This document shows positions 29,571-31,190 of a DNA stretch of 64,000 bases, in pieces; position 1 is the first letter of the stretch, and each line of letters starts with the position of its first letter. The position numbers and the translations under genes were made by a program. The notes beneath the pieces were generated by a model. It was not told where the DNA came from. It saw only the letters and a program-made list of their open reading frames with translations, and did no database searches. The stretch lies in contig NZ_LR216287.1 of assembly GCF_900696045.1 (NCBI RefSeq), positions 2,461,854 through 2,525,853 on the forward strand. The letters are read 5' to 3'. This DNA is from Candidatus Nitrosocosmicus franklandus. GTDB taxonomy: Archaea > Thermoproteota > Nitrososphaeria > Nitrososphaerales > Nitrososphaeraceae.

Positions 29571-30719
29571 TCATAAATTTAGATTGAACCGGGTTTCAAT
29601 TTTATTTTTGATATATTTTTGAATACGTTCATAAAACAATCCACAACCAAGTCCAACTATTGCACCGATTATCAGAGTTAGTGGGAATACAACAGAAAAG
29701 GAATCCACAAAAATTGGGATAATATCAACTAAGGTTGTAAATTCCGTATTCGATAAATCTAATGGCATCAAAAAGTTTCCAAGAGCTAGAGGTAACAAAG
29801 GATATCCCATTAGGTAAAATAATGATGCCATTATGATTGCAGCAACCAACTTTCTATTTTCTGAACGATGCCTACCACCCCTTTTGAATGGCGGTTTATC
29901 ATATACAATAAGATCTATCAGAATGAAGGGTATGATAACCAAGAGATAATAAGGCATAAAGAGTGCAAGATCCGCGGATGGAAGAATATTCGATAATGAA
30001 GTTGCAACGATTACACCGATGCCCACTAAACTAATGTACCCAAATTTCTTTACAGTATTGATCATAAAGAGGGTCATAAATGAATTAATCAAAGGCAAGA
30101 ACAGTAGGGCTATTAGCGATTCAAGATATGGATCAAGGTTAAAGTTGAATATCTCTCCATTGGATATAGGTAAAGAGAAAATATATACATAAGAAATTGA
30201 GGTGAGCCAGAGCGCTACAAGCCCAAATACAAACATTATAGAGCTAATAACATGAAATGGTCTTTCCTTTTGAAGCGAGTTAAGACGAACTAGTCCCAAT
30301 GTAGTTCCGATTGCGTTAATAAACATACCAGTAATCAACATCAGATGTGTAGGGCTTAGAAATCCATCGACTCCAAATATTTCATGCCAAGCAAAATCAC
30401 TTGGACCAGAAACAACAGACAATACCGATCCGACAATAAGAAGCTTGAAGGATAGTGAAATAACATCATTTTGTATTTCTTTATACTTTATCAAGACATA
30501 GGCTGCAATAATTGATGAAATGGACAGTAAAAAAATCCCACTATACATCACAGTGTGTGACGGAGTAAAGAATGTTTCTGGTTGTAGTAACAAATGAGAA
30601 GTTACATCCCAATTACCTCCAGCAATTTGAAGAATAGAGCCCACAGAAGCTATTCCTAAAATGACAAAACAATAATAAAAAACTCGTTTGTCTAGGAAAG
30701 GCTTTGTTTGCATATTCAT
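29571..30719 (-). CDS. Polytopic membrane protein with conserved-looking His motifs, family unknown
   Basis: 382 residues with about nine or ten hydrophobic segments and a basic loop (KPPFKRGGRHRSENRK, near 275). The first third has four periplasm- or membrane-edge motifs with His: WDVTSHLLL, FFTPSHTVMYSG, DFAWHEIFGVDG and LSPTHLMLI. Such repeated S/T-H and W-H-E patterns suggest metal or haem ligands. A 14-bp perfect palindrome lies 28 bases before the start and a winged-helix gene just beyond, so it is probably regulated by a small molecule. No transporter family was recognised. Confidence 0.75.
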   Translation of the reverse strand: MNMQTKPFLDKRVFYYCFVILGIASVGSILQIAGGNWDVTSHLLLQPETFFTPSHTVMYSGIFLLSISSIIAAYVLIKYKEIQNDVISLSFKLLIVGSVLSVVSGPSDFAWHEIFGVDGFLSPTHLMLITGMFINAIGTTLGLVRLNSLQKERPFHVISSIMFVFGLVALWLTSISYVYIFSLPISNGEIFNFNLDPYLESLIALLFLPLINSFMTLFMINTVKKFGYISLVGIGVIVATSLSNILPSADLALFMPYYLLVIIPFILIDLIVYDKPPFKRGGRHRSENRKLVAAIIMASLFYLMGYPLLPLALGNFLMPLDLSNTEFTTLVDIIPIFVDSFSVVFPLTLIIGAIVGLGCGLFYERIQKYIKNKIETRFNLNL

Positions 30720-30746
30720 TATTATAATTTGACAGATATAAATATT

Positions 30747-30760
30747 ACTGACCGGTCAGT
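30747..30760. promoter_or_regulatory. 14-bp perfect palindrome, likely operator
   Basis: ACTGACCGGTCAGT, perfect and GC-rich in AT-rich DNA. It sits directly upstream of TATA-like AATATTTATATC (minus strand, 30736-30746), which is itself about 20 bases before the ATG at 30719. A repressor bound here would block TFB/TBP. The TGACC-GGTCA halves are typical of TetR-type operators, but no TetR gene is in the window; the nearby winged-helix protein is the only local candidate. Confidence 0.6.
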
Positions 30761-30896: not shown

Positions 30897-31190
30897 CTAG
30901 ATTTCGTAGTCGCTTTTAAGGGATGGAACAAATTCAATTATGTTATCATATTTTCTTACAAATTCATTTCCTTTAGGAGTAGCCAGAAATCTATGCTGTG
31001 TTTCATCAAATCTCAACAAACCTAGTCTAACTAGATCTGCCAAGTAATAGTTAAGACGTCTATATGAGCTATAATAACTTAGTCTGTTTTTGGTTTGAGA
31101 TTTTCCAATACAACTCTTTACGATCAAATAAAAAATCTGACACTTATCACGATATTTTGTCTTGCCCCTATCTCTTCCTTCGACCAACAA
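30897..31190 (-). CDS. Winged-helix DNA-binding protein (HTH_45-like)
   Basis: 97 residues. The pattern CQIFYLIVKSC, then KNRLSYYSSYRRLNYYLADLV-type recognition helix (SYRRLNYYLADLVRLGLL) and the wing FLATPKGNEFV matches the archaeal single-domain winged-helix family common in Nitrososphaerota. It likely binds DNA as a dimer. It lies upstream of the orphan membrane protein gene in the same orientation, with the ACTGACCGGTCAGT palindrome between them. Confidence 0.75.
   Translation of the reverse strand: MLVEGRDRGKTKYRDKCQIFYLIVKSCIGKSQTKNRLSYYSSYRRLNYYLADLVRLGLLRFDETQHRFLATPKGNEFVRKYDNIIEFVPSLKSDYEI

Follow-up and report, generated by a model that had tools for sequence, protein, structure and literature searches.

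A membrane protein gene in the window, the whole 64,000-nucleotide stretch of DNA analysed here, very probably encodes a divergent homologue of AmoC, as judged from sequence and profile comparisons, and lies behind a dedicated palindromic operator which, in many relatives, is accompanied by a TetR-family gene. The best overall explanation, to which we assign a probability of about 0.6, is that of a TetR-repressed AmoC homologue, which, once induced, may handle copper or act as a membrane oxidase dependent on it. The window comes from the genome of an ammonia-oxidising soil archaeon, represented by a single contig of 2.84 Mb; its relatives in the same genus bear the label Candidatus Nitrosocosmicus.

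The AmoC-like gene and its motifs

The gene and its main parts are located as follows.

29571 to 30719, minus strand: AmoC-like membrane protein gene, 382 aa (ORF list, BLASTP, hhalign)
30171 to 30719, minus strand: AmoC-homologous N-terminal half, residues 1-183, helices 1-5 (hhalign, PDB profile matches, model)
30555 to 30608, minus strand: CuC-like motif D38-x3-H42-x12-H55, invariant in the family, spaced as D41/H45/H58 of AmoC
30345 to 30398, minus strand: CuD-like motif D108-x3-H112-x12-H125, invariant in the family, with Asp against the Asn of AmoC, spaced as N113/H117/H130 of AmoC

Translation probably starts at the second ATG (30713), giving a protein of 380 aa, because the orthologues begin there and the distance between operator and ATG is then 47 nt, as in theirs. 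The ORF carries the motifs WDVTSH (W37-H42), TPSHT (H55), WHEIFG (H112) and SPTHL (H125), which the initial annotation had placed at membrane edges. The four His residues are invariant in the family. In an AlphaFold2 model with a pLDDT of 87.9, they lie where helices 11-43, 53-78, 87-115 and 123-149 end or begin, or close to these points, in agreement with that description; from the predicted helix topology, all four would face the same side of the membrane. Residues that are invariant in an alignment of 28 family sequences are W37, D38, H42, P53, H55, D108, W111, H112, S122, P123 and H125. The His residues of the annotated motifs match a known copper-site pattern, but the two Asp residues that belong to the same motifs had been overlooked.

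No family of Pfam or NCBIfam, transporter and enzyme families included, matched the window protein. The description of the protein as an orphan has to be abandoned: it belongs to a family found widely among ammonia-oxidising archaea, with an N-terminal half homologous to AmoC. A viral origin of the gene was rejected, as no member of the family was found in the viral contigs searched. A search for RNA genes within the window found none.

Comparison with AmoC and PmoC

The similarity to archaeal AmoC detected by BLASTP spans residues 38-146, at about 23% identity, and reaches E=2e-5 for one comparison, with the ligands in register. When the family profile was aligned to AmoC by hhalign, an E-value of 9.7e-7 (about 1e-6) was obtained; the score was 46.2, whereas 100 class-preserving shuffles reached 21.0 at best and reversed AmoC gave 13.9. 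The best PDB matches of the window protein were AmoC chains. In a profile search against 177,635 PDB sequences, the top five were AmoC/PmoC chains, with PmoC among the few matches; the best AmoC E-value was 0.01, and no individual AmoC match was significant by itself. The Pfam AmoC model (PF04896) recognised the orthologue from genome G036 with E=5.7e-4 and 20.2 bits, under the curated cut-off of 26.7, which was not reached; the window protein itself gave no match to it. A relative from genome G051 bridges the two families, with E-values of 1e-14 to the window protein and 5e-6 to AmoC; its second site reads NE-x2-H, as in AmoC, and neither AmoA nor AmoC was found in G051. A profile search, which the initial annotation had suggested with a metal site in mind, led in this way to AmoC, a family with metal ligands, and not to a family lacking them, the outcome named there as refuting.

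NE-x2-H is found at the second site, as in AmoC, in the relatives at L258:3071-4093, L248:4868-5824 and L249:4540-5496, from genomes in which AmoA/AmoC were not detected.

In PmoC, the CuC site is formed by Asp156/His160/His173 and the CuD site by Asn227/His231/His245 (PMC12576850), and both sites are reported to be conserved in archaeal AmoC (PMC10030591). The window protein contains D-x3-H-x12-H twice, at a distance of 70 residues; in the AmoC of the same host the corresponding residues are D41/H45/H58 and N113/H117/H130, 72 residues apart. The CuC pattern, D-x3-H-x12-H, is reproduced by the invariant D38/H42/H55, with a spacing identical to that of PmoC. A CuD-type site is also present, although not in the form N-x3-H-x12/13-H: both His are kept, and an invariant Asp108 takes the place of Asn, followed by x12 spacing where PmoC has Asn and x13. 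PmoC belongs to a trimeric ABC complex, of which no sign was seen for the window protein. The double motif was found in 223 of the 2416 ORFs at the loci covered, a set enriched for both AmoC and AmoC-like proteins, and every one of the 223 was AmoC or AmoC-like. From these ligand patterns, copper may be held at both the CuC-like and the CuD-like site.

The family belongs to the AmoC superfamily, but is distinct from AmoC and should not be filed under that name, because Asp replaces Asn in its CuD-like site, it scores under the Pfam cut-off and it carries an extra domain. Unlike archaeal AmoC, the window protein has about 200 additional C-terminal residues and more membrane helices, and its gene has an operator of the TetR type and no AmoA or AmoB neighbour.

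Distribution of the family

Within a sample of 398 genomes of the phylum, the family and AmoC occur together in 60, the family alone in 4, AmoC alone in 11, and neither in 323 (Fisher p=1e-54). The family is thus carried by 60 of the 71 AmoC-bearing genomes, spread across the ammonia-oxidising archaea. Three draft genomes (G043, G051 and G052; 77-94% complete), in which AmoA and AmoC were not detected, contain divergent members. The family tree resolves a Nitrososphaeraceae clade, which includes the window type and is the site of both operator and TetR, a marine clade, a clade in which the gene is preceded by a partner, and a short form from Nitrosopumilaceae. Neither an operator within two mismatches nor an adjacent TetR gene was found at the marine and partner-coupled loci.

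The short form, of about 200 aa, combines both D-x3-H-x12-H motifs with a conserved tail, YEIF[SA]SGC[SA][IV]L, and is present in most of the Nitrosopumilaceae sampled (L240:4376-4966; L242-L247, L250-L253). The partner, encoded directly upstream in one clade (L096:7883-8452, L161:5382-5954 and others), is a membrane-anchored, probably beta-rich protein of about 190 aa with invariant His residues (PH...SHxP...DxQ). It could be assigned to no known family, and no link to AmoB was detected; its identification as AmoB was rejected, with an hhalign E-value of 0.39 and no PDB match.

In the open-access literature that was searched, the family is not described, and the discussion is confined to duplicates of canonical AmoC. 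Provisionally, it is therefore regarded as a second, previously undescribed AmoC-related family of ammonia-oxidising archaea. A close parallel is given by the extra AmoC copies of soil species, such as AmoC1-6 of Nitrososphaera viennensis (PMC10030591), which are likewise AmoC paralogues located away from amoA and amoB; those are close duplicates, whereas the present family stands apart at about 23% identity.

The strong co-occurrence with AmoC in the 398 genomes would fit an accessory role in ammonia oxidation, the protein being a membrane copper store, a chaperone, an assembly factor of the ammonia monooxygenase (AMO) or a stand-in for AmoC that is induced by stress; a function in stress has been proposed for the extra canonical AmoC copies (PMC10030591, PMC7490402, PMC11561398). 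We regard such a role, the main rival of our own reading, as possible rather than probable. Co-occurrence could also result from ancestry shared within one lineage; the family is present in the three genomes, named above, in which AmoA and AmoC are undetectable; no amo genes lie beside its members in the neighbourhoods read; and the window protein departs from AmoC in its low identity, its doubled length and the Asp at the CuD-like site. A role independent of AMO is favoured because the family is found where AMO is undetected and has no amo neighbours.

Predicted structure

When the model of the N-terminal half was compared with known structures by Foldseek, bundles of cytochrome b561 and STEAP proteins were ranked first (TM 0.54, E 0.05), STEAP1 among them; AmoC and PmoC were absent from the best 50 matches listed, in a comparison that had no archaeal AmoC as positive control. 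The full-length model gave no significant match. This ranking would agree with a b561-like electron-transfer or metal-transport protein, similar to AmoC only locally, whose sites bind Fe, Zn or haem; the six ligand-type residues would all be compatible with more than one metal. Such a protein is nevertheless improbable: homology to AmoC emerges by several independent routes and above shuffles, Pfam finds no b561 match, and the predicted topology places the four His together at one face of the membrane, against the two-sided haems of b561.

Operator, promoter and TetR regulator

The elements upstream of the gene are the following.

30736 to 30742, minus strand: TATA box TTTATAT, from the sequence and the promoter alignment; the operator covers its upstream flank, where the BRE would lie
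30747 to 30760, no strand assigned: operator ACTGACCGGTCAGT, a perfect 14-bp palindrome, conserved in orthologous promoters
30897 to 31190, minus strand: 97-aa winged-helix ORF of the HTH_45 type (Pfam PF14947 on orthologues, neighbourhoods)

The palindrome next to the TATA box was already recognised in the initial annotation, and its position and perfect symmetry are as described there. Its absence from orthologous promoters, named there as a refuting outcome, was not observed: in the alignment of the 100 nt upstream of the gene in ten members of the genus, the only conserved stretch is TGACTGACYRGTCAGTAaTaNTTATA. Of the 15 genus genomes, 12 contain a single exact copy of the extended palindrome, ACTGACYRGTCAGT, and in all 12 it precedes the AmoC-like gene, which is more than chance would give; of the remaining three, G007 has a site with one mismatch before its own copy, and no close orthologue is present in G004 or G005. 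In other genera, the operator also precedes orthologues of 37-45% identity.

The initial annotation had also proposed to look for the palindrome elsewhere in the genome. The 10-bp core, TGACCGGTCA, has two more exact sites in the window genome, both inside coding sequence and not regulatory, and for this reason the core alone was dropped as a genome-wide regulon marker.

A TetR gene sharing the site had also been anticipated, and is indeed adjacent in many relatives, while unlinked in the window genome. In these relatives it follows directly downstream of the AmoC-like gene, with overlapping stop and start codons in G013. Over 80 family loci, the operator is found together with an adjacent TetR gene in 15 and by itself in 3, and there is no case of an adjacent TetR without operator; some relatives have neither. 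Outside the genus, a divergent nucleotide-sugar dehydrogenase gene is followed by the operator, the AmoC-like gene and TetR. Within the genus, another TetR from the clade of the adjacent ones is encoded at a separate location, mostly beside a nucleotide-sugar dehydrogenase gene, and a site near-identical to the operator, ACTGACYRGTCAGA, lies 115-316 nt upstream of these unlinked TetRs in 8/8 copies examined. Adjacent and unlinked TetRs group together in a single clade that excludes the remaining TetRs of these genomes, and TetR_N (PF00440) is found in the adjacent TetRs and, with E=8e-17, in the unlinked TetR of the window genome (C1:2032266).

From this linkage, control of the AmoC-like gene by TetR is considered highly likely, and in the window genome the unlinked TetR at C1:2032266 most likely acts on it in trans. 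The window locus has no adjacent TetR, and a downstream remnant was looked for and not seen. Five members found to have no adjacent TetR (G000, G002, G003, G006 and G008) make up one branch of the protein tree, so that a single loss, with the operator kept, would explain them. In G008, a draft 96% complete, the TetR search found none at all.

Broken or truncated TetR genes lie beside the AmoC-like gene in G009, G007 and G011 (L075, L066, L067), suggesting that the adjacent copy is being lost there. In the window genome, a single in-frame stop (L036 ~1210, minus strand) interrupts the nucleotide-sugar dehydrogenase gene that diverges from the unlinked TetR; in several relatives this gene is open.

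The winged-helix ORF is flanked by the AmoC-like gene and by one for an acetyltransferase, and holds this position in four further genomes of the genus that were read; it is a possible regulator, less likely than TetR. It is very unlikely that the palindrome serves this or another regulator, with the TetR link being secondary, since the nearby ORF and the missing TetR at the window locus have to be set against the 80-locus counts, the near-identical site that the unlinked TetRs have of their own, and the pairing of operator and TetR also outside the genus.

The arrangement resembles autoregulated TetR-family systems in its palindromic promoter operator, in the position of TetR within the operon or divergent from it, and in the TetR_N domain. 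It differs from them in that the target is an AmoC homologue and not an efflux pump, and in the archaeal TATA/BRE promoter.

Proposed function

According to the proposed mechanism, the N-terminal half, of five helices, would keep the equivalents of CuC (D38/H42/H55) and CuD (D108/H112/H125), with an extra C-terminal membrane domain attached to it. A TetR repressor would occupy the palindrome, which borders TATA/BRE on the upstream side; with the BRE inside the operator stretch, the bound protein should block access of the basal factors TFB and TBP. Release of TetR by a small molecule would then allow the protein to be made only on demand. Its role would be that of a membrane oxidase dependent on copper, or of a protein that handles copper, and it may act on a hydrophobic compound independently of AMO. 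The analysis demonstrates the homology, the conservation of the ligands and their spacing, the conserved dedicated operator and its genetic linkage to TetR; repression by TetR, copper in the two sites and the oxidase or copper-handling role are inferred. The ligand-controlled system suggested in the initial annotation, perhaps for a metal or a hydrophobic compound, is supported in part.

As for the specific activity, our first choice, held tentatively and at less than even odds, is an inducible membrane oxidase that depends on copper and acts on a hydrophobic compound. A wider and rather unlikely extension is that a free-standing family of inducible copper oxidases or monooxygenases, older than AmoC or sister to it, exists in Nitrososphaeria and in closely related archaea that lack AMO, that AmoC arose from it, and that the window protein is a TetR-controlled member working without AmoA and AmoB.

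Which of PmoA, PmoB and PmoC carries the active site of copper membrane monooxygenases has been a matter of debate, and recent work favours PmoC (PMC10030591, PMC12576850). With both copper-site patterns of PmoC/AmoC, and no AmoA or AmoB neighbours, this widespread family would offer a natural system of a single subunit for testing the role of these sites. Its occurrence in archaea without detected AMO bears on the origin of AmoC, and the dedicated TetR operator offers a handle on the inducer, in organisms that dominate soil nitrification. The family adds a relative to a central enzyme of the nitrogen cycle, with a function and an evolutionary position that can be tested.

Related genes in the window genome

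A second member of the family is encoded elsewhere in the window genome (L092:6637-8163; G000:C1:123699-124742), with a length of 508 aa and long low-complexity insertions. The same genome has three copies of AmoC (L097, L098 and L099), identical in protein sequence, two of which lie about 13.5 kb apart.
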